Source of the DNA: a virus | Virus record (IMG/VR): IMGVR_UViG_3300025872_000285 | Span: 1-25,062 of that record | Strand: one strand, 5' to 3' | DNA length: 25,062 nucleotides | Position numbers and translations under genes: made by a program | Shown here: in pieces, positions 2,808-23,691 of the stretch | How the letters are laid out: each line of letters opens with the position of its first letter | Numbering within the stretch: position 1 is the stretch's first letter | Notes under the pieces: model-generated | Databases searched by the model: none | Seen by the model: the letters and a program-made list of their open reading frames with translations, nothing else | Told to the model about the DNA's origin: nothing

Positions 2808-4063
2808 GCATGGCGTCACCGGAACATTTGCTGATCTCTAAAGTCATACAGACCGCTGACATCGCCACCCCAGTCAAGTCAGGGCTCAAGGCTGAGCACC
2901 TCACTGGCGCATGGTCGGAAGTGTGGATGTGGCTCACCGAGTTCTACCGCACACACGGTTCAGTACCCACGCCCCGAGTGTTCAAGACACAGTACGCCGA
3001 CATCCAGTTATACGACGCTGAGGCTGAACCGTTCTCTCGCTTGATTGACGAAATCTTTCAGGCGCACACACAGCATCGCCTCGTTGAAGTCATCTCCGAG
3101 GTCATGCCACTCATCAACGAGGGCAAGACGAAAGACGCTCTTGAACACCTGTCATCGGGTGTGCAAACTGCTTCCGTTGAAGTGTCCCGTATGCGGGACA
3201 TTGACATCATTCAAAACTGGGAGAACCGTGTCGCTCGTTACGAAGAGATGCGAAACACCCCAAACGCTCTTCGTGGTATTCCCACAGGTTTCTACGGGCT
3301 TGACCGCATCACCTCCGGGTTGCGCCCCCAGCAATACATCGTGTTCGTCGGTGAGCCCAAGCGTGGTAAGTCGCTCTTCGCACTTATCATCGCCAACTCT
3401 TGCCACATCCATGGCAAGACCCCGATGTTCGTTTCGTTTGAGATGAGTATTGAAGAGCAAGAGGCTCGTTATGACGCCATCATCTCTAAGACTCCGTACA
3501 ACAAGATTCTCCGTGGCGATCTCACGAAGCCGGAGATGGACCGCATCGCCAAAGCCTTGCGAGCCCGCAAGAACATGCAACCGTTCATCTTCAGTGAGGA
3601 CACCTCGTCACTCACAACGATCTCTGCACTTATGGGCAAGGCAAAGGAATACCAGCCCGACCTCCTCGTCGTGGACGGCGTGTATCTCATGGATGATGAA
3701 GAGGGGGAGCCAAAGGGTTCTCCGCAAGCGCTGACCAACATCACCCGTGGTCTCAAGCGCATGGCACAGAAGTTGGACATCCCCATCGTCTCCACGACGC
3801 AGGCTCTCTCATGGAAGTTGAACAACAAGAAGACCCGTGCCATTACTGCCGATGCCATCGGCTACTCGTCATCGTTTGTTCAGGACGCCGACCTCGTTCT
3901 CGGTGTTGAGCGCAATCCCGACTTGGATGACCAAGCCATCATCCGTGTTGTTGCGGCCCGTACTGCACCAACCGGCGAAGTACACATCAAATGGGACTGG
4001 GACCACATGGACTTTTCGGAGGTGACTGCTGATGGCTACGGTGTCGGAGACGCATTTGACTGA
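2801..4063 (+). CDS. dnaB: DnaB-type replicative helicase
   Basis: A 420-residue RecA-fold helicase that would unwind the fork 5' to 3'. Residues 1-130 form a helical N-terminal domain. The linker and entry signature GIPTGFYGLDRITSGL is at 159-174, Walker A GEPKRGKS at 184-191, and a Walker B strand DLLVVDGVYLM near 285-295, followed by a Q-containing strand (IVSTTQALSW) and a C-terminal segment with conserved arginines (IIRVVAARTAPTGEVHIKWDW). The length fits DnaB and T4 gp41-like helicases. The ATG at 2801 has GAAAGG upstream; ATG 2810 is an alternative. Loader and primase flank it. Confidence 0.93.
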   Translation: MVGMASPEHLLISKVIQTADIATPVKSGLKAEHLTGAWSEVWMWLTEFYRTHGSVPTPRVFKTQYADIQLYDAEAEPFSRLIDEIFQAHTQHRLVEVISEVMPLINEGKTKDALEHLSSGVQTASVEVSRMRDIDIIQNWENRVARYEEMRNTPNALRGIPTGFYGLDRITSGLRPQQYIVFVGEPKRGKSLFALIIANSCHIHGKTPMFVSFEMSIEEQEARYDAIISKTPYNKILRGDLTKPEMDRIAKALRARKNMQPFIFSEDTSSLTTISALMGKAKEYQPDLLVVDGVYLMDDEEGEPKGSPQALTNITRGLKRMAQKLDIPIVSTTQALSWKLNNKKTRAITADAIGYSSSFVQDADLVLGVERNPDLDDQAIIRVVAARTAPTGEVHIKWDWDHMDFSEVTADGYGVGDAFD

Positions 4064-4955
4064 TCTTGCCTCAGTTCTCAAGAGCATCGGCGTAGACGTT
4101 CGCCGTGCTGACGGAAGAGAAATATCAGGGCGATGCCCTGTCCATCGCCGTGTCACGGGTCGTGAAGATGGCTCGCCCTCATGGAGCATGAACGCCCAAA
4201 CCGGGCTTTGGATTTGCTTCTCCTGTGGCGCACGAGGAACGCTCAGCATGTTGGTTTCGGAACTAACGGGTGAGCCGGACGCCATCATGGCAGTTCATCA
4301 TTTCTTGATTGACCGCAACTTGGAACGGCTCACACTCGGAGCCGAGGCACCGGCAAAGAAGCCTGAGATTGACTGGGTGTCCTTTTCAAAGTTCGTCATG
4401 CCTCCGGAGTCTGCGATGGACAAGCGTGGGCTTGACGCTGAGCAAGTACTCATGCATGGGGTTCGCTGGGACACCATGAACAAGGCGTGGATCATTCCTA
4501 TCGTCAACCATTTTGGCGACTTACAGGGCTGGCAGACAAAGGCTTACGGGTGGGTGCGTAACTTTCCCGTTGGAGTAAAGAAGTCGGACAGCCTGTTTGG
4601 GATTGAGCGCTTTCTCGGTGGCACCGCTGTGTTGGTGGAGTCACCCCTAGATGTCGTCCGCTTCGCCAGCGTCTTTGAGAAGCCCCAAGCCTTAGCGACC
4701 TTTGGAGCCGCCGTTTCGGATAAGCAACTTTCCCTGCTGTCCACGGTGGCAGACCGTGTTGTTATCGCTATGGATAACGACGAGGCGGGTATCCGCTCCA
4801 GCAAATCTTTGTTCAACCGTTTGCCCCATTTTCGGAAAGGCACGCTATGGTGGAACTACTCCGGCACCTCAGCAAAGGACATCGGAGACATGACCGCTCA
4901 CGAGATGGCTGAAGGACTATCGTCAGCGTCCCGAGTCCTTCCATGGAACTTGTAA
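4032..4955 (+). CDS. dnaG: Short DnaG-type primase (zinc finger plus TOPRIM)
   Basis: A 307-residue primase. The N-terminal zinc-binding domain has CPVH at 35-38 and C62/C65 (WICFSCG). The TOPRIM core is visible as the glutamate motif (VLVESPLDVVRF, around residue 205) and the aspartate motif MDNDEAG (around residue 250). The protein ends shortly after, so the C-terminal helicase-binding domain of bacterial DnaG is absent, as in many phage primases. The ATG at 4032 has the strong site GGAGGTGA (4018-4025) and overlaps the helicase gene by 32 bases, suggesting coupled translation. It synthesises RNA primers at the fork. Confidence 0.9.
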   Translation: MATVSETHLTDLASVLKSIGVDVRRADGREISGRCPVHRRVTGREDGSPSWSMNAQTGLWICFSCGARGTLSMLVSELTGEPDAIMAVHHFLIDRNLERLTLGAEAPAKKPEIDWVSFSKFVMPPESAMDKRGLDAEQVLMHGVRWDTMNKAWIIPIVNHFGDLQGWQTKAYGWVRNFPVGVKKSDSLFGIERFLGGTAVLVESPLDVVRFASVFEKPQALATFGAAVSDKQLSLLSTVADRVVIAMDNDEAGIRSSKSLFNRLPHFRKGTLWWNYSGTSAKDIGDMTAHEMAEGLSSASRVLPWNL

Positions 4956-4978
4956 TACCAACTACCAAAGGAGACCCA

Positions 4979-5413
4979 ATGCCCAAGATCATTCGCCAAA
5001 GCCCTGAGCCCACCGACGAGGTGTATCTGTCTCGTCTTGTGGAGGAGTACATCAAAGCCAAGGAGTTCAGTGACTCCGCAGTGAAGCGCACTGAAGAGAT
5101 GAAGAAGGAACTGTCCAACATCGTGGACATTGATGGTTACACCGACCATGTCGGACACAAGTGGATTGAGACTCCGTCCGGCGTGCAACTCAAGCGTGAG
5201 CGCCGAGTGTCTATTAACTTGGATCACTCCGCGGCTCAAGATTGGGCTCAGGCCAAAGACTTGTGGGAAGAGATTTCCATCCCCGTGCGTATGTTGGACG
5301 AAGACGCCCTCGCAACTCTTGCCCTTGATCGCCCCGAACTTCAGAGCGAGATTCAAAGTCTGTACAAGGAGAAAGAAACTTGGGCATTTAAGGTAATAGA
5401 GCCCAAAAACTAA
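4979..5413 (+). CDS. Hypothetical helical protein, 144 aa
   Basis: The start at 4979 follows AAAGGAG (4966-4972); an in-frame ATG at 4943 lies inside the primase gene and has no such site. The first 60 residues are charged and likely helical or coiled coil (YLSRLVEEYIKAKEFSDSAV, then KRTEEMKKELSNIV). A central part with ETPSGVQLKRERRVSINLD looks like beta strands, and the C-terminus is acidic and helical (EIQSLYKEKETWAFKV). I do not recognise the family. The position after the primase suggests a replication or nuclease accessory role. Confidence 0.8.
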   Translation: MPKIIRQSPEPTDEVYLSRLVEEYIKAKEFSDSAVKRTEEMKKELSNIVDIDGYTDHVGHKWIETPSGVQLKRERRVSINLDHSAAQDWAQAKDLWEEISIPVRMLDEDALATLALDRPELQSEIQSLYKEKETWAFKVIEPKN

Positions 5414-5422
5414 TAACTGCTA

Positions 5423-5444
5423 TCCTTATAGGAGATAAGGAGGT
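5423..5444 (+). promoter_or_regulatory. Hairpin that includes the ribosome-binding site of the next gene
   Basis: TCCTTAT (5423-5429) pairs with ATAAGGA (5435-5441) around the loop AGGAG. The right arm contains most of the ribosome site AAGGAGGT (5437-5444) of the gene starting at 5453, and the loop itself is a second Shine-Dalgarno-like sequence. Folding would hide the main site, so translation may depend on opening of this stem. Confidence 0.55.
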
Positions 5445-5452
5445 AGTCAGCC

Positions 5453-5632
5453 ATGCCTAAAAACGAAGAACGCACACCTCCGGGGAGATGGGAATGTCCA
5501 AAATGCGGAACTTTAGTGGAGACGATGGTTCAGACGATTGGTCCTCCAACCTGTTCCCGCCACACTGGTGGAGCAGTCAAGATGACCCCCACAACCAAGC
5601 CGTTTCCCAAGCCAAAGGAGCACCAGAGTTAG
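5453..5632 (+). CDS. Small zinc-ribbon protein, 59 aa
   Basis: A 59-residue protein with CPKC at 15-18 and CSRH at 34-37, a four-ligand zinc ribbon, and a basic proline-rich tail (TKPFPKPKEHQS). Small proteins of this pattern, CPKCG followed by PPxCxxH, are common in actinobacterial phages; their role is unknown. The start has the strongest ribosome site in the neighbourhood (AAGGAGGT at 5437-5444), partly in a hairpin. The 3' two thirds overlap another reading frame (5494-5799). Confidence 0.78.
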   Translation: MPKNEERTPPGRWECPKCGTLVETMVQTIGPPTCSRHTGGAVKMTPTTKPFPKPKEHQS

Positions 5633-5799
5633 TCCTCACAATTGACACTATTGTCAATTTGTTGCGTGTCATCTCCGTCTGCCCCCCGAGTAACCTTGCA
5701 TCGGCATTGCTTTCAGGTGAAAACGCTGTTACTCTGGAAGAACGAGTTCGTCTCCTCGTTTGGTGCGAGAATCTTTCAAAAAACTTGTCTAATCAATAG
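5494..5799 (+). CDS. Possible overlapping CDS; start unresolved
   Basis: The frame is open from 5488 to 5799. The part after 5632 looks like a real protein (TIVNLLRVISVCPPSNLAS, then a LEERVRLLVWCENL helix). The first 45 codons overlap the zinc-ribbon gene in another frame and look unusual (several Trp and Asp, FPPHWWSSQDD). ATG 5494 has GGGGAG six bases upstream; ATG 5488 is too close to it. No ATG or GTG lies between 5632 and 5660, and a TTG at 5659 lacks a ribosome site. The C-terminal half is probably translated, but from which start is unclear. Confidence 0.45.
   Translation: MSKMRNFSGDDGSDDWSSNLFPPHWWSSQDDPHNQAVSQAKGAPELVLTIDTIVNLLRVISVCPPSNLASALLSGENAVTLEERVRLLVWCENLSKNLSNQ
5640..5659. 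repeat. Perfect 8-bp palindromic repeat AATTGACA/TGTCAATT
   Basis: Arms 5640-5647 and 5652-5659 pair perfectly around CTAT, starting eight bases after the zinc-ribbon stop. It is A+T-rich in an otherwise G+C-richer region. TTGACA appears on both strands, but no -10 box follows at the right distance on the plus strand. It may be an operator or an RNA hairpin at the junction of the two overlapping frames. Confidence 0.6.
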
Positions 5800-15621: not shown

Positions 15622-15761
15622 TGGCAAAGCGTTCATACCGACCTGACCCCCGTAATGAGTATTTGAAGCGTGGAGTTGTTAAACCACGCCCGATTACTCC
15701 GTTCGGTGGAGGGGTTCAAGGGGGTATGTTCAGCAGTGCCGGTACCGGCATGGATAGGTAA
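15621..15761 (+). CDS. Small basic protein, 46 aa
   Basis: Starts in a TAATG overlap and ends in another. The sequence is basic (AKRSYRPDPRNEYLKRGVV, then KPRPITPFGGG) and ends glycine-rich. No domain is recognisable. It belongs to the row of short proteins with R/P-rich character between 15.4 and 18.5 kb. Confidence 0.6.
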   Translation: MAKRSYRPDPRNEYLKRGVVKPRPITPFGGGVQGGMFSSAGTGMDR

Positions 15762-16252
15762 TGTCTAACGCATTTACTACTGGCCCCAGCCCTGACGGCA
15801 ACCGTAACTCAGGTAGCACTCTTCCGCTTCTTGGGCCAACCCCAGTATTCCGTAACGCCAAAGACCAGCGCCTATCAGCGTTTGGCTCTACTCCTGACAC
15901 TCAGTACCCCGATGGTTACCTTGGAACAATGTCTAGTAACCGCCGTCAGGACAAACTGACGAATGCTGTCGCTCGGGCGAACCAGCGCTCCTACTCTAGA
16001 GGCGTACATAAGGGTGAGCGTATTAATGCCGGTGACTACATTTGGCCAAAAGAGTTCAACCTTCTTACTGGGGTAATGCTTCAGTCCAAGGGTAAAAAGT
16101 ACGCCCCAACAGGTGCGGAGCCGACCGTTCTAACCAATGACGGCAAGGTTGGCCCCCGTGGAATTGCTCGTGGTTTGGAGCGCCCAAACCCCGAAGTTAT
16201 AGATATGCAACGACGAAGCATGCTAAAATCTCTAGCACCAGCATGGCGTTAA
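15761..16252 (+). CDS. Hypothetical protein, 163 aa, proline/glycine-rich
   Basis: Starts in a TAATG overlap. Low in hydrophobic residues at the N-terminus (TTGPSPDGNRNSGSTLPLLG), then basic (SSNRRQDKLTNAVARANQRS). The most ordered part is DYIWPKEFNLLTGVMLQSKG near residues 92-111, followed by GIARGLERPNPEVIDMQRRS. I do not recognise a family. It could be a small virion or DNA-packaging-associated protein; this is a guess from the composition. Confidence 0.75.
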   Translation: MSNAFTTGPSPDGNRNSGSTLPLLGPTPVFRNAKDQRLSAFGSTPDTQYPDGYLGTMSSNRRQDKLTNAVARANQRSYSRGVHKGERINAGDYIWPKEFNLLTGVMLQSKGKKYAPTGAEPTVLTNDGKVGPRGIARGLERPNPEVIDMQRRSMLKSLAPAWR

Positions 16253-17117: not shown

Positions 17118-17411
17118 TTGGCTAAGCCGTGGCAGACTCACGAGGAATACCTCACTGATCAGGCCCTAGAGGCCGCCTTGAGTCTTACCCCCGATGAGAT
17201 TCGGGAACTGCGCCCCCAGCATCCGCTGGAACTCTTCCCCGAAAACCGTGGCTTCATTAAACAAACCGCCACTGTTATGGACATTCTTACGACTAACCGT
17301 TACACCGCTACCAACCGCTCATGGTTGTCTGGTATGCCCGTTCGCCGTACTCAACTGGCTGACGGTGACTGGACAGGCACGGGGCGCTACTCAATGGATG
17401 CACTTGGATGA
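17118..17411 (+). CDS. Hypothetical protein, 97 aa
   Basis: The TTG start lies three bases after the previous stop, with AAGG upstream. It is mostly ordered in appearance: a helix (HEEYLTDQALEAALSLT), DEIRELRPQHPLELFPE, then TATVMDILTTNRYTATNRSW and a GTGRYSMDALG end. It overlaps the next gene by four bases (ATGA). No family is recognised; it is the least disordered member of this block. Confidence 0.72.
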   Translation: MAKPWQTHEEYLTDQALEAALSLTPDEIRELRPQHPLELFPENRGFIKQTATVMDILTTNRYTATNRSWLSGMPVRRTQLADGDWTGTGRYSMDALG

Positions 17412-18301
17412 GCAGAGAGTTTGAACGTCAACTTAGAAGCGCAATGAAGAACCTTGGCACAGGTTCTATCCCCACCACGGATTACTCCATGGGGGAAACC
17501 TTTGCTCAGGGTGACCTGAAGTTTCCTTCAGCGCCCCAGTTCTCTATGCCGAAGCCTCGTGAATTGGGCATCAACCGAGACTTTAGCGGTAAACAAATGT
17601 CTTTGTACTTTCAAAATGCAAAGTTTAAAGGGCCAAAGAAAGAAACTATAGACAATATGAACCAAAGAGCCACCGAAGCAGGGGGAATCTTTGGTGAAGA
17701 GATGACCGCCCGTAAAGAGGGTCGTATGCCTCGCTCAGCCCGTGAGTCCGCTCGCCGTCAACAGGAAGCCGATATGCGGTCAATCCAGCAAGACTACGCC
17801 CGTGGTTACGGAGCCGATACGGGCAACGCTTATGAGGATGCTTATAGCGATACCCTAAATAAAGTACAGAAAACCCTGAATGAGCCCCCCATGCAGGACG
17901 AAAGTTCTAATCCGGCTCCTACTCCTGATAAGACTTTGGATGATGTAACTAAGACTCCTAAGGCTAAGACTCCTAAAGCCCCTAAAACTCCCAAGACCCC
18001 CAAGCCAACAAATACCGGGGGGGCTCCTGAAGCACCCAAAGCGCCCACCCCTCAAGCACCTCAAGCGCCCACTCCTCAAGCCCCTACCCCGAAGATTCCT
18101 AACGGGGGTCGTCGCACAGGGTCTCGCCGTGAGGACGCTGTGGGTGATACAGTAGGTGGTGTGAAAAGCACGACAAAGCCCCTGACTAAGCCATTGGTTA
18201 AACCTTTGACTAAGACAACCACGGGAGCGTCTCGTGGCACCGATACTTCTGATGCCCGTAACCCGGGTCGCCGGACACCCAAGAAGGGACGATACACATG
18301 A
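17408..18301 (+). CDS. Disordered protein with KTPK and APTPQ repeats, 297 aa
   Basis: ATG 17408 overlaps the previous stop. Residues 1-150 are basic, with a helical Arg/Gln-rich part (SARESARRQQEADMRSIQQD). Residues 180-230 are low-complexity: KTPKAKTPKAPKTPKTPKP, then APKAPTPQAPQAPTPQAPTP. Later come repeats of KPLTKPLVKPLTK and a basic end (GRRTPKKGRYT). Such Lys-Pro and Pro-Gln tracts are typical of flexible linkers or of proteins that bind nucleic acid by charge. Length may vary between relatives by repeat slippage. Function unknown. Confidence 0.75.
   Translation: MSREFERQLRSAMKNLGTGSIPTTDYSMGETFAQGDLKFPSAPQFSMPKPRELGINRDFSGKQMSLYFQNAKFKGPKKETIDNMNQRATEAGGIFGEEMTARKEGRMPRSARESARRQQEADMRSIQQDYARGYGADTGNAYEDAYSDTLNKVQKTLNEPPMQDESSNPAPTPDKTLDDVTKTPKAKTPKAPKTPKTPKPTNTGGAPEAPKAPTPQAPQAPTPQAPTPKIPNGGRRTGSRREDAVGDTVGGVKSTTKPLTKPLVKPLTKTTTGASRGTDTSDARNPGRRTPKKGRYT
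17951..18095 (+). repeat. Low-complexity coding repeat (AAGACTCCTAA-like and CCTCAAGC-like units)
   Basis: Two adjacent degenerate repeat families, each translated in frame: an A+C-rich unit encoding (A)KTPK, then a C-rich unit encoding AP-TPQ. The units differ by single bases, as expected from repeat expansion followed by drift. It is a likely hotspot for length variation. Confidence 0.7.
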
Positions 18302-18495
18302 CCGTCAACAATTCCCGATCCATGAATCTTGACCTGCAAAAGGGTCTCAATGATGGCGTTTTCAAGAGCCTTGCCCCCGACCGTGGTGGCGAGGTGGAGA
18401 TGCAGGCTATCCATGAGCGAGCCTCGCTACTCCAGCCCCAGTACGACATGAACGACCTCAAGATGGGTGTCGTTCAGTCTTCGCCGTACAACTGA
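18298..18495 (+). CDS. Hypothetical protein, 65 aa
   Basis: The ATG overlaps the previous stop (ATGA). The sequence has DLQKGLNDGVFKSLAPDRGG, then EVEMQAIHERASLLQPQYDM and NDLKMGVVQSSPYN. It is probably helical, without a recognised domain. It ends the run of overlapping genes; a 33-base gap with a strong ribosome site follows. Confidence 0.68.
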   Translation: MTVNNSRSMNLDLQKGLNDGVFKSLAPDRGGEVEMQAIHERASLLQPQYDMNDLKMGVVQSSPYN

Positions 18496-18528: not shown

Positions 18529-18987
18529 ATGCCTCGTCTATTGACCTGCCAATCCTGTGGCACCATGTACCGCATGCGGGACTACGATGGCCCTGCCGAG
18601 TACGACATGGAGTTGATTGAACTAATCAACCGTCACCTTGGTCAGGCGGTAAACCCCGATCCGGACGCCCATAAGTCCGTTATCTTCCGCTGTGACGACG
18701 CAACGTGGGAAAAACTCGGTGACGAGACAGCCGTCAAGAAAGAGTTGATGAAGAACGAGATTGAGGTTCGTGAAGTGCGTGACGACCTCAAGGTGGAGGC
18801 TTTGAAGTGCTTCCAGCGCCATAATCGCCCCGCTGACATGTGCATTGATTATGAAGATGACAGCAAGACCATCGGGCGCAAGATCGGTGTTCCGAAAGCC
18901 AACCGCCAATACCTCTGTCACTACTGCCCCTGCACCTCGTATGTGGTGCATCAAAACCGTAAGGCTAAGGGGATGTATGACTCGTGA
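18529..18987 (+). CDS. Cysteine-pair protein, 152 aa
   Basis: ATG 18529 follows ATAAGGAG; its start region is identical over 17 bases to that of recA. There are two cysteine clusters, C7/C10 (CQSCGTMY) at the N-terminus and C130/C133/C135 (CHYCPC) near the C-terminus, which could form one metal site in the folded protein. Between them lie acidic helical segments (AVKKELMKNEIEVREVRDDL). I do not recognise the family. The GTGA overlap with the next gene suggests coupling. Confidence 0.78.
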   Translation: MPRLLTCQSCGTMYRMRDYDGPAEYDMELIELINRHLGQAVNPDPDAHKSVIFRCDDATWEKLGDETAVKKELMKNEIEVREVRDDLKVEALKCFQRHNRPADMCIDYEDDSKTIGRKIGVPKANRQYLCHYCPCTSYVVHQNRKAKGMYDS

Positions 18988-19466
18988 TTGTATTCAACTT
19001 TGATGCCATAGCCCTCCCCTCCGATACTCTCGGAACTCGCCAGCCGAGCACCGAAGGTCGTCGTCTATGGGACACGCTGTTTCAGAAGTACATGGGTCGC
19101 ACGCTCGTTGTGGTCGACGGCCAGTATCGGCTTGAGTTGGTCAAGGAGTGGTTAAAGCGAGAGAACTTTAAGGTCTCTTCTATCCACCAAACCCCGACTA
19201 TCGTTCGTGACGGTAATACTCCAGCGGCGGAGGCGGTTTGGCACATCACATCCGCAATCTCCCGACCCCACTTCTACATTGATGTAAACCCCGAGACCTG
19301 TCAGATCGTCAACGCCCAAGGTGTGCCGACCCTCCTCTTGACAGTTCCTAAATACTTGCGCCCCGAATGGCACCAACCCCAAGCCAAGCGCTCGTGGGAT
19401 GTCGTTGTAGACGAGGTGGAAGCCCGTGCCATGCAGAAGTCCGAAGCGACATGGGGCGATCTATGA
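18984..19466 (+). CDS. HAD-like protein without the catalytic Asp, 160 aa
   Basis: The GTG start overlaps the previous stop. The N-terminus VFNFDAIAL has the place and hydrophobic pattern of HAD motif I (DxDxT), but the nucleophile position is Asn (N5) and the Thr position is not conserved. A strand TLVVVDG and helix LELVKEWLKREN follow. The end HFYIDVNPETCQIVNAQGV then PTLLLTVPKY resembles HAD motif IV, where the usual xxxDD/GDxxxD acids are reduced to one Asp. Likely a HAD-fold protein with lost phosphatase chemistry, or a look-alike fold. It may bind a nucleotide or a partner. It is tightly linked to the TGT/DpdA-like gene. Confidence 0.6.
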   Translation: MIVFNFDAIALPSDTLGTRQPSTEGRRLWDTLFQKYMGRTLVVVDGQYRLELVKEWLKRENFKVSSIHQTPTIVRDGNTPAAEAVWHITSAISRPHFYIDVNPETCQIVNAQGVPTLLLTVPKYLRPEWHQPQAKRSWDVVVDEVEARAMQKSEATWGDL

Positions 19467-20881
19467 GGGTGTTCTTTGGGGGTGCCGAAAAGGGTGCCCA
19501 ACGGCGCATCTTAGAAAGAGCCGGGGTTACCCGCTTCGGGGTGAACTTGACGCATTTTCCTATCCCTAAGACCAAGGAGTTGGTCTTATCCGAGGTGGTT
19601 ACCGGCGAAGTCATCCTGTACACCAGCGAGAACGACGAAGACCAGCACCGCTTTGACGAGTTCGTCCGACAACACGAACACAGCATTACCGCCATTATTG
19701 GTCGCCCCGACTACGACGGGTCGTGGCTGGGGGACAAGTACATCCCCGTATGGTCAGACGGCGAAGACCTTGAGCGGTTAGCGATCATTTGTCAGCGTCA
19801 CGGACGGGTTGCTATCTCAGACAAGGCGGTCAACGGTAAGACGATTCCCCGCATTCGGTCTCTCGCCCAGCGCTGGAACGCCCAACTGTACGGGCTCACC
19901 AGCAAGCCGGATGTCATTGAGGCGCTTCCGTGGCACACGGTGATTGTTGGCTCGTGGACGAGCGCTCTCCGCTACGGAGAAACTCAGGTGTGGGACGGTC
20001 ACGGACTTCGGCGGTATCCCGCCCAACAAAAAGAGTCGTCACGCAAGAAACATCGTGCGGACATTATGCGCCTCGGATTGAATCCTGACCTTGTACTCGC
20101 AGACGACACCACCGAAGTTGGGATGCTCGCTATCCGGTCATGGCAGGCATGGGAATCTCGGGTCTATGACCCTCCGAACAACTCTCCCAAGGAGGCACTA
20201 ATGACTAACTCTGAGGGCGAAATAATTACTATGACCCCCTCACCCTATGGTGGAGAAGTTGGGGTTTCAGGGGTATCAAGTATTGCTATGACCCCCCCTG
20301 AGAAGCGGCACGAGAATGAGCGTTTATTGCTACCAGTTATTGGGGTAGAGAAGATTACTTCAATAGGTACCCACACTGGTTCTGAGCAGGGCGAACAGTA
20401 CGAAATTGACCCTGAAGAGATACCCGTAATCCGGCACACAAACGCCCTTCTGCGACAGTGTGATAATTGCTATTTGGCTTCTAAATGTCCCGCATACAAA
20501 GAACACTCAGAATGCGGTTTCAAGTTGCCCGTGGAAATCCGAACGAAAGACCAACTTCAGGCCACGCTTCGTGCCCTTCTAGAGATGCAGGTGAGCCGGG
20601 TTCTGTTTGCTCGCTTCGCAGAAGAGATGGAGGGTCAGGGATTGGATTCCACCCTCAGTGGAGAGATTGACCGTATGTTTAATCTCGTTAACAAGTTTAA
20701 AGACATCTCTGATACCCGAGATGTTATCCGCATGGAGGTGGAGGCTCGCGGGTCAGCGGGCGTTCTGTCTCGTTTGTTTGGGCAGAAAGCGGGCGAGACC
20801 GCTCGGGAACTGTCATCTCCGCTTCCCCCACAGATCATGGACAACATGGCTATGGACATCATCAATTACGAGGATGATTGA
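19463..20881 (+). CDS. TGT/DpdA-like barrel protein with cysteine-rich C-terminal domain, 472 aa
   Basis: ATG 19463 overlaps the HAD-like stop (ATGA). Residues 1-230 read like a TIM barrel of the tRNA-guanine transglycosylase/DpdA type: DKYIPVW, then GRVAISDKAVNGKTIPRIRSL, then LYGLTSKPDVIEALPWHTV followed by IVGSWTSALRYG. In that family the last part normally reads HGLG..., then SVDSTSW; here the Asp is replaced by Val-Gly (VIVGSW) and the His by Tyr (LYGLT), so base exchange is doubtful. The middle is polar and variable. The C-terminal part starts with CDNCYLASKCPAYKEHSEC and ends with long helices. No deazaguanine pathway gene is visible. Barrel assignment is by pattern; the fusion is unusual. 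Confidence 0.5.
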   Translation: MRVFFGGAEKGAQRRILERAGVTRFGVNLTHFPIPKTKELVLSEVVTGEVILYTSENDEDQHRFDEFVRQHEHSITAIIGRPDYDGSWLGDKYIPVWSDGEDLERLAIICQRHGRVAISDKAVNGKTIPRIRSLAQRWNAQLYGLTSKPDVIEALPWHTVIVGSWTSALRYGETQVWDGHGLRRYPAQQKESSRKKHRADIMRLGLNPDLVLADDTTEVGMLAIRSWQAWESRVYDPPNNSPKEALMTNSEGEIITMTPSPYGGEVGVSGVSSIAMTPPEKRHENERLLLPVIGVEKITSIGTHTGSEQGEQYEIDPEEIPVIRHTNALLRQCDNCYLASKCPAYKEHSECGFKLPVEIRTKDQLQATLRALLEMQVSRVLFARFAEEMEGQGLDSTLSGEIDRMFNLVNKFKDISDTRDVIRMEVEARGSAGVLSRLFGQKAGETARELSSPLPPQIMDNMAMDIINYEDD

Positions 20882-22207: not shown

Positions 22208-23293
22208 ATGAAGGTAGGAGTAGCATCCGGCGACTGGATTCATCCCGACCGTGTTGACGACGGGCTAGAGAAATGGGGTGGCTCGGGCTGGGCTCGTGTC
22301 GCCCAATACCTCCCCCACCTGACGGGCATGGAGTTCATCACGGGAACCCTTATCTTTGACCCCAAGCACGGGTCTTTCCAAATCCGCAGTGCCGATGAAG
22401 CCATCCATGACATTGATGTGGTTTGGATGCAACGCCTCATGCACTCAGGTGCGTCAACCAACATGAAAATCTCCCGCTCCATGGGGCAGATCATTATCAA
22501 CGACCTAGACGACTGGTACTGGGGTCTGTCGGCAAGTAACAATGCCTTCCTGAACACGCACCCCAAGTACAGCCCCGAGATCAACATCAACCATTACCGA
22601 TCAATCCTCGCTCAGTCTGATGTTGTCACGGTGAGCACTCCCTACCTCGCTGACCGAGTCAAATCATGGGTTACCAAGTGCCCGATCTTGGTTATTCCAA
22701 ACTACGTTGATACCCAGCGCTTCACCAAGCATGAGCACACCGACACGGATGTTCCCCTCGTTGGGTGGGCGGGAAGCACGGGTCACCGCAGTAACGATCT
22801 TGAGACCATTGCCGGTGTCATTCGCCCGATGGTCAATGCAGGTTCCATCAAGTTTCATCACACTGGGGCGCACCCGTCCATGAAGAGCGTGGCATCGCTG
22901 GTGGGTCTCCGTGACGATCAGGTGTCCACACTCCCGCTGACTGACCACCTGACTTATCCGTCTTATCTCAAGTTTGATGTTGGTGTTGTCCCGCTGAACA
23001 ACATTCCATTCAACCGAGCGAAGTCCGACATCAAAGGTCTTGAGTACAGCGCAAGTGGTATTCCGTTCGTGGCGCAGAACTTAGATGCGTACATTGACCT
23101 CCAGCGTTCGCTCGGTATTGGTCGTGTCGCCAAGCGTCCCACGGATTGGATTCGCCACTTGAATGCGCTACGCTCTCCCCATGTTCGTCGTGAGGAGGGG
23201 GAAGCCTGCTACGAAGCGGTGCAACACCGAGACATCAAATACGGCGTGCAGATACATCAGCAACTGTTTGACCAATGCAGGAGACCACAGTGA
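22208..23293 (+). CDS. GT4-like glycosyltransferase
   Basis: 361 residues; ATG 22208 follows GAGGAGTTGTT. It has the two-domain GT-B layout: an N-terminal half with IDVVWMQRLMHS, INDLDDWYW and SDVVTVSTPYLADRV, then a C-terminal half with LVIPNYVDTQRF, PLVGWAGSTGHRSNDLE and the donor-site signature DVGVVPL then NRAKSDIKGLEYSASGIPFV. The family transfers sugars from nucleotide donors; acceptor and sugar cannot be read. No signal or membrane segment is seen, so it acts in the cytoplasm. Phages use such enzymes to modify DNA, virion proteins or host surface glycans; beside a cell-wall enzyme, envelope modification is plausible. Confidence 0.88.
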   Translation: MKVGVASGDWIHPDRVDDGLEKWGGSGWARVAQYLPHLTGMEFITGTLIFDPKHGSFQIRSADEAIHDIDVVWMQRLMHSGASTNMKISRSMGQIIINDLDDWYWGLSASNNAFLNTHPKYSPEININHYRSILAQSDVVTVSTPYLADRVKSWVTKCPILVIPNYVDTQRFTKHEHTDTDVPLVGWAGSTGHRSNDLETIAGVIRPMVNAGSIKFHHTGAHPSMKSVASLVGLRDDQVSTLPLTDHLTYPSYLKFDVGVVPLNNIPFNRAKSDIKGLEYSASGIPFVAQNLDAYIDLQRSLGIGRVAKRPTDWIRHLNALRSPHVRREEGEACYEAVQHRDIKYGVQIHQQLFDQCRRPQ

Positions 23294-23691
23294 TTATCGG
23301 AATGATTGACCTACCATCGCTCGCTTTCCCCGACAAAGACTCATCATGGAGAGACCTAGCCTCGTGCAAGGGCTCTGATCTCAACAAGTTCTTTCGGGAG
23401 CGAGGTGACTCGGGCTATCCCGCAGAGCGCATCATGTGCGCCCTCTGCCCCGTGCGAAACAACTGCTTGGACTTTGCTCTTGCGAACCACATCCAGCACG
23501 GTTTCTTTGGCGGGTTCTCAAAGGATGAGCGCCAGCAGATTGACGCCGGAAGATTGTCACGAGAGATCACGATGACTCAACTGGTCAAAGACCTTCGCAA
23601 GTTGAAGCACAAGAACCCAGTGCGGAAAGCATCCGTGTTGTTTGCGAAGAGCGAAACCGAGATTCACAAGATGCTGTCCGAGGGCAGATAA
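23290..23691 (+). CDS. Second WhiB-family Fe-S regulator
   Basis: The start is the GTG at 23290, overlapping the glycosyltransferase stop (GTGA) with AGGAG six bases before it; ATG 23275 is an alternative without such a site. It has 133 residues. WhiB cysteines are C26, C50, C53 and C59 (C-x23-C-x2-C-x5-C), with SWRDLASCKGSDLNKFFRE at the start and the turn GFFGGFSKDER at 71-81. The basic helical C-terminus (LVKDLRKLKHKNPVRKASVL) could bind DNA. The first cysteine gap is shorter than in the WhiB at 21135 and the glycine turn differs, so the two are probably not recent duplicates. It ends the rightward array before a terminator. Confidence 0.9.
   Translation: MIIGMIDLPSLAFPDKDSSWRDLASCKGSDLNKFFRERGDSGYPAERIMCALCPVRNNCLDFALANHIQHGFFGGFSKDERQQIDAGRLSREITMTQLVKDLRKLKHKNPVRKASVLFAKSETEIHKMLSEGR

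Follow-up and report, generated by a model that had tools for sequence, protein, structure and literature searches.

The window, by which we mean the whole 25,062-base virus sequence analysed here, contains three consecutive genes that we designate P1, P2 and P3 (Table 1). The sequence-only reading had described them as joined by GTGA and ATGA overlaps, and both overlaps are present in the sequence. A Shine-Dalgarno sequence, AAGGAG, is located 6 nt 5' of the P1 start. The P1 protein has invariant Cys residues at C7, C94, C105, C130 and C133, with a CxxCP motif near the C-terminus. None of the three proteins gave a significant match in Pfam, NCBIfam or PADLOC, and PDB sequence searches with P2 and P3 also returned no significant match.

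Table 1. Features of the P1-P2-P3 locus and its direct neighbours, with positions in the window
Feature	Position	Strand	Remarks
65-aa gene directly upstream of the trio	18298..18495	+	Kept in 64/64 eligible loci of the window clade
P1	18529..18987	+	152-aa Cys-rich protein
P2	18984..19466	+	160 aa, GTG start; predicted HAD-fold pseudo-phosphatase
GTGA overlap, P1 stop / P2 start	18984..18987	+	
P2 motif I, Asn5-Phe-Asp7	18996..19004	+	Asn in nucleophile position
P3	19463..20881	+	472 aa, ATG start; putative non-catalytic DpdA/TGT barrel and Cys-rich helical domain
ATGA overlap, P2 stop / P3 start	19463..19466	+	
P3 TGT-type barrel, residues 1-235	19463..20167	+	AF2 pLDDT ~90, structural matches
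P3 TVIVGSW, TGT/DpdA nucleophile site	19937..19957	+	Ile instead of Asp
P3 residues 330-445, Cys-x2-Cys-x5-Cys-x8-Cys and helices	20450..20797	+	Homology to stand-alone Bacteroidetes-phage protein
WhiB-like gene downstream of P3	21135..21539	+	Kept in 71/71 eligible loci

Conservation and linkage of the three genes

In the clade to which the window belongs (80 contigs), P1 was found in 79 contigs and P2 and P3 in all 80; counted at eligible positions, the figures are 70/70, 73/73 and 72/72, respectively. The trio was also present, in a more diverged form, in 80 further contigs including that of Streptomyces phage BRock. In this diverged group, P2 was missing solely from five contigs in which P3 starts 125 bases or less from the contig end, and P1 was recovered by profile wherever about 5 kb upstream of P3 was present. 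The order P1-P2-P3 was retained in every sufficiently long relative. When the neighbourhoods in the 80 + 80 contigs were checked for relatives with unlinked genes, the trio proved to be linked. The claim of tight linkage thus stood as regards the retention of the trio, but not as regards strict overlap, which is not universal because genes intervene in some loci. P2 and P3 overlap or lie 5 bases or less apart in 43 of the 80 loci of the window clade and in 68 of 75 diverged loci. An ~80-aa gene, seen in examples, stands between P2 and P3 in about half of the window clade. Between P1 and P2, a nucleotidyltransferase gene with a G-S...D-L-D motif occurs in 63/64 eligible loci of the diverged group and was not found in the window clade. 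In BRock, gp39 (L083, 9268-10257) is nucleotidyltransferase-like and its GS...DLD motif looks intact.

For a sample free of selection by P3, contigs were gathered by TerL alone. P3 was present in 13/13 TerL-picked contigs of at least 68 kb, and the three TerL contigs without P3 were fragments of 55-63 kb. We also calculated dN/dS of the window genes against three relatives (L005, L033 and L002), obtaining 0.005-0.07 for P1, 0.04-0.07 for P2 and 0.04-0.09 for P3; the ratios against L002 are rough, as synonymous distances to it approach saturation. Purifying selection on all three genes is strong, and values of 0.005-0.09 rule out pseudogene decay of the trio. A search of bacterial genomes detected a single relative, in Terracoccus. 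The open-access literature covered, mostly in the form of titles, abstracts and passages, contained no description of the trio or of P3 from the BRock group.

P2, a predicted HAD protein lacking the nucleophile

P2 was modelled by AlphaFold2 (AF2) with a pLDDT of 90. The best structural match was the 3'-phosphatase domain of T4 Pnkp (Z 14.6, rmsd 2.2 Å over 117 residues), and the model and its structural matches to HAD proteins assign P2 to the HAD Rossmannoid fold, as had been supposed from the sequence. In the N-terminus, VIVFNFDAIA, the HAD DxD motif opens with Asn. This replacement of the catalytic Asp, also part of the earlier description, is directly visible, and Asp was found at position 5 in 0/81 window-clade sequences. 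In the diverged group the nucleophile is missing in 71/77 P2 homologs, a count in which alignment gaps were scored as lacking it; the 6/77 that retain it count against the reading of the trio that we favour below. The acidic pair of motif IV is also incomplete, with D100 kept and Val at position 101 (V/N/T/S/I in the clade). P2 is thus predicted to be a HAD pseudo-phosphatase whose nearest structural relative is the T4 Pnkp 3'-phosphatase and whose catalytic residues have been lost. It differs from the T4 domain in its Asn nucleophile position, in the absence of the second motif IV Asp and in being a stand-alone domain.

The P3 barrel and its relation to DpdA

An AF2 model of P3 was built with 48 homologs. 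Past the well-modelled barrel, the linker (residues 236-320) and the Cys region were poorly modelled, with pLDDT values below 50 in much of their length. In a Foldseek search, ranking by E-value placed assorted, unrelated TIM barrels on top with marginal values. After structural realignment of the Foldseek top 1000 with VIA-align, the best 50 realigned structures were all TGTs (Z 12.9-13.8, rmsd 3.2-3.7 Å, ~220 residues). In terms of sequence, P3 matched phrog_887 with an E-value of 1.8e-37. An intact Bacteroidetes DpdA used as query matched P3 in 23/23 trio genomes (E 3e-5 to 2e-16, one match each); the family of this query matches the DpdA studied experimentally in Enterobacteria phage 9g, DpdA being a 7-deazaguanine DNA transglycosylase (PMC6884629). 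Structure and DpdA match together place the P3 barrel in the TGT/DpdA superfamily, and by sequence it is nearest to phage DpdA. The TGT/DpdA-like barrel proposed for P3 was therefore recovered by two approaches, and comparison of the P2 and P3 structures, which could have revealed unrelated folds, returned HAD and TGT folds. The zinc site of TGTs (CxCxxC...H) is absent from the barrel of P3; in its place, the Cys-x2-Cys-x5-Cys-x8-Cys motif stands ~100 residues past the barrel.

Loss of catalytic residues in P3

The nucleophile of TGT is Asp280 in the Z. mobilis enzyme, and the other catalytic acid is Asp102 (PMC6165067). The TVIVGSW site of P3 aligns with SVDSTSW, SCDSSSW, STDSSSW or SVDSVTW of intact phage DpdAs, so that the departure from the usual SVDSTSW, first noticed in the window alone, is evident in the alignment as well. 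Among 163 aligned P3 homologs, the residue at the nucleophile position is S, V, I, L, A or T, and D or E in none. The window clade lacks the DSG motif as well, and with it the second catalytic Asp, a loss beyond those in the sequence-only reading. The Asp of this motif is kept in the BRock group, including BRock gp36, from which the nucleophile has been lost; among the remaining diverged sequences in the alignment, D, E, H or S occupies the position. Both catalytic Asp residues are retained in 6/6 intact phage DpdAs aligned beside the P3 family.

P3 displays an invariant stretch, W165...G172-E/D-T174...W177...R184-Y185-P186...K190...R194, followed by an Arg/Lys-rich segment, a composition that would fit nucleic-acid binding. 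Position 173, next to the old active site, is E or D in 163/163 fused homologs and Thr in Bacteroidetes DpdAs.

The C-terminal domain and descent of P3

The fusion of the barrel to a Cys-rich helical domain, likewise read from the window, was confirmed by the invariance of Cys333, 336, 342 and 351 in 163 homologs and by the homology of the domain. In three Bacteroidetes-type phages, a stand-alone protein is the homolog of the C-terminal domain (E 4e-19 to 5e-15 at a search size of 100,000; hhalign probability 99%). In these phages (BS162P1, MT835482 and L088), the gene of the stand-alone protein directly follows a dpdA with both Asp residues kept, queC precedes, and a queE-like radical-SAM gene then follows, giving an operon queC-dpdA-(Cys-helical gene)-queE. 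The counterparts of the two halves of P3 are thus neighbours in a 7-deazaguanine DNA-modification operon, which indicates that P3 descends from a DpdA system and that the chemistry was lost; P3 differs in uniting what are two separate genes there. In a phylogenetic tree, the fused P3 family formed one clade (100/98) joined to the Bacteroidetes DpdAs that adjoin the stand-alone partner, although long branches weaken this join. As the fused family is a single clade with this position, loss of the nucleophile would most simply have been one early event.

We searched the 23 trio genomes for QueC and found it in 0/23, some of which may be incomplete contigs, while the same search detected it in the BS162P1 control (1/1). 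P3 was also the sole DpdA homolog in these genomes when intact DpdA was the query, with no second DpdA/TGT. These results led us to reject both an active 7-deazaguanine modification by the trio phages, for which the nucleophile of P3 is also absent, and a second, intact DpdA working with P3.

Two observations concern other dpdA genes. The catalytic motif of the MT835482.1 dpdA (L087, a human faecal phage; 3518-5716) is interrupted by an apparent intein, which separates SSDSS from TTWLGG. Arthrobacter phage Sonali (L182) has two genes annotated as queuine tRNA-ribosyltransferase: gp87, an intact DpdA with queC/queD/queE/folE beside it, and gp81, which comprises only 205 aa.

The conservation of position 173 raises the possibility that P3 is still an enzyme in which catalysis passed to this acidic residue, located in the strand that follows the former nucleophile loop, maybe with another base or substrate. 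That it could be a relocated catalytic acid is the main doubt concerning the dead-enzyme reading, and the very strong purifying selection on P3 is in accordance with an active protein. However, in the window clade both canonical Asp positions are Ile, Val or Leu or are missing, the nucleophile site drifts freely among the six residues given above, and the QueC result also speaks against modification chemistry. Taking both sides into account, we consider a catalytic P3 unlikely.

Genome context and hosts

TerL, portal, capsid and DNA polymerase are common to BRock, a myovirus carrying 29 tRNAs (PMC7453282), and two relatives, G001 (74 kb) and G016 (97 kb). The trio stands after homologs of pol, exonuclease and RuvC, at the end of the replication/recombination region; in G001 and G016 it is located away from the cluster of portal, capsid and tail genes. 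No tRNA genes were found in the window or in G001. The WhiB gene, the Streptomyces isolates and the Terracoccus genome match point to actinobacteria as hosts.

Several neighbouring genes were also recorded. Two WhiB-like genes, the one in Table 1 and another at 23275-23691, both conserved in relatives, flank putative lytic-transglycosylase-like and glycosyltransferase-like genes. Upstream of the trio, small conserved genes (15761-16252, 17118-17411 and the 65-aa gene), some of which also occur in the diverged group, alternate with proline-rich genes that are poorly conserved. A minus-strand frame cut by the contig end (3-356) is Dps/ferritin-like by eye (MASSTGLTKSLKALLSDVVTFYFMAHGFHWNVEGEDF...). 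Directly upstream of TerL lies a gene for a probably helical protein of ~80 aa (L170, 5621-5845; L176, 11173-11415; BRock gp157, which is L085 11055-11306, minus strand), a candidate small terminase of BRock-like phages.

The latter gene bears on the possibility that P3 itself is a small terminase or packaging factor, with the barrel recognizing the genome and the helical C-terminus oligomerizing and contacting TerL. The C-termini of 20/48 members gave weak matches to phrog_6902 (terminase small subunit), with an E-value of 0.0096 for P3 of the window, and P3 is a core gene in the TerL-selected contigs. P3 nevertheless lies far from TerL (~48 kb in G001 and ~31 kb in G016), and in G001, G016 and BRock the ~80-aa gene is by its position the likelier small terminase. 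The phrog_6902 match led to gp9, the TerS of Gordonia phage Orchid, for which a search of viral contigs yielded Orchid itself and no other relative; the likeness of P3 to gp9 is confined to a 23-residue Cys motif with an hhalign probability of 3.4%. This and the distance from TerL led us to set aside a small terminase identity for P3, and a packaging function of this kind seems improbable.

We assign a similarly low probability to a tRNA-binding pseudo-TGT that would act on host or phage tRNA in the manner of QTRT2. In its favour, QTRT2 is itself a TGT without catalysis (PMC6165067), P3 matches TGTs best in structure, and BRock has its many tRNAs; but the sequence of P3 is nearest to DpdA, a DNA enzyme, the window and the 74-kb relative have no tRNA genes, and the phage genomes, with one DpdA/TGT match each, namely P3, offer no catalytic TGT partner.

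If the trio encoded virion or late structural proteins, the enzyme folds would be mere scaffolds. The position of the trio after the replication/recombination homologs, away from the structural cluster, makes this about as improbable as the two preceding explanations. There are nonetheless small proline-rich flanking genes resembling those near TerL and portal, and the endolysin gene interleaved in the BRock module could instead point to a function late in infection or in the virion.

Least probable of all in our estimation is a counter-defence function, with the pseudo-DpdA as a decoy or competitor against TGT-like or 7-deazaguanine host systems (Dpd, or type IV CBASS Cap10): Cap10 is reported to be a TGT fold used in immunity (PMC11996544), and the diverged loci have their nucleotidyltransferase between P1 and P2, but the trio is core and strongly conserved in presence, unlike most accessory anti-defence genes, and found no match in PADLOC, which covers defence rather than counter-defence proteins.

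Proposed role of the trio

The reading that we favour, at a probability of about one half, is that the three proteins form a core complex around a dead DpdA, one that binds nucleic acid and has no catalytic activity. P1-P2-P3 would be a module belonging to the core of the BRock-like actinobacterial phages, a large group. P3 would be a non-catalytic DpdA; because the nucleic-acid-binding scaffold of the barrel is kept and the nucleophile is lost, binding of DNA would be expected, but no exchange of bases. The Cys-cluster/helical domain of P3, with a metal site deduced from the sequence, probably provides metal-stabilized oligomerization, and the stand-alone Cys-helical protein of the Bacteroidetes phages would be an apparent partner of DpdA. 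P2, with its Pnkp-type fold and lost nucleophile, is probably a binding subunit, and P1 probably a small, metal-binding linker. Together they would most likely constitute a DNA-binding accessory complex in phage DNA metabolism, a role suggested by the location of the genes at the end of the replication/recombination region. DNA is preferred over tRNA as the ligand of P3 because its nearest relatives are DpdAs and because no tRNA genes occur in the window or G001. The folds, the homologies, the missing catalytic residues, the conservation, the linkage and the purifying selection are observed; that metal is bound, that the proteins associate, that DNA is the ligand and which step they serve are points that we infer.

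The sequence-only reading had suggested recognition of modified DNA or tRNA. The evidence leans against modified DNA and phage tRNA as ligands of the trio, leaving host tRNA as a conceivable one; as QueC was not found and there is no second DpdA/TGT, these phages have no visible 7-deazaguanine to recognize.

Comparison with known proteins

Phage DpdA shares its TGT-type barrel with P3 but carries both catalytic Asp residues that P3 of the window clade lacks. P3 is in addition fused to the Cys-helical domain, and its associates are P1 and a pseudo-HAD protein in genomes where QueC was not found; the Bacteroidetes-phage operons have QueC and QueE. Non-catalytic or remodelled TGT folds are already known. 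In QTRT2, the non-catalytic subunit of eukaryotic TGT, both catalytic Asp residues are replaced, as in P3, but QTRT2 pairs with the catalytic QTRT1 and acts on tRNA (PMC6165067). Cap10 is reported to be a TGT-family protein remodelled for another task, as P3 would be; it differs in belonging to a bacterial defence operon and in binding a modified protein terminus (PMC11996544). The literature searched contained no phage family in which a pseudo-DpdA carries a Cys-helical domain and is firmly linked with a pseudo-HAD and a Cys-rich protein.

The closest described relatives of the whole trio are in Streptomyces phages BRock (gp36/gp38/gp42) and GiJojo (gp181/gp179), where the order of the trio genes is that of the window but extra genes, such as an endolysin and a nucleotidyltransferase, are interleaved. 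The order in BRock is gp42 (P1), gp41, endolysin, nucleotidyltransferase, gp38 (P2), gp37 and gp36 (P3). GenBank names for the BRock and GiJojo homologs are 'queuine tRNA-ribosyltransferase', 'dpdA-like' and 'hydrolase'. By sequence, the family thus already has its place in PHROGs (887) and in GenBank, but the enzyme name that it bears there is not supported by the catalytic residues.

These labels imply base-modified DNA or tRNA, and the known route to it was not found in these phages; the evidence suggests that for the trio branch the enzyme label is wrong on function. Whether phage DpdAs that lack the pathway have changed in function was a question that Hutinet et al. did not settle (PMC6884629). 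The P3 proteins of the trio represent a widespread core branch of DpdA in which the nucleophile is uniformly gone, and can be tested in isolated Streptomyces phages. The comparison also exposes a candidate partner protein of DpdA in the 7-deazaguanine operons of Bacteroidetes phages. More tentatively, and with the odds somewhat against it, an ancestral DpdA and its Cys-helical partner may, together with a pseudo-phosphatase and a Cys-rich protein, have become an indispensable nucleoprotein complex without catalytic activity, serving DNA recognition for replication, packaging or immune evasion and without a described counterpart. If true, this would be a DNA-recognition machine present across an entire group of actinobacterial phages.
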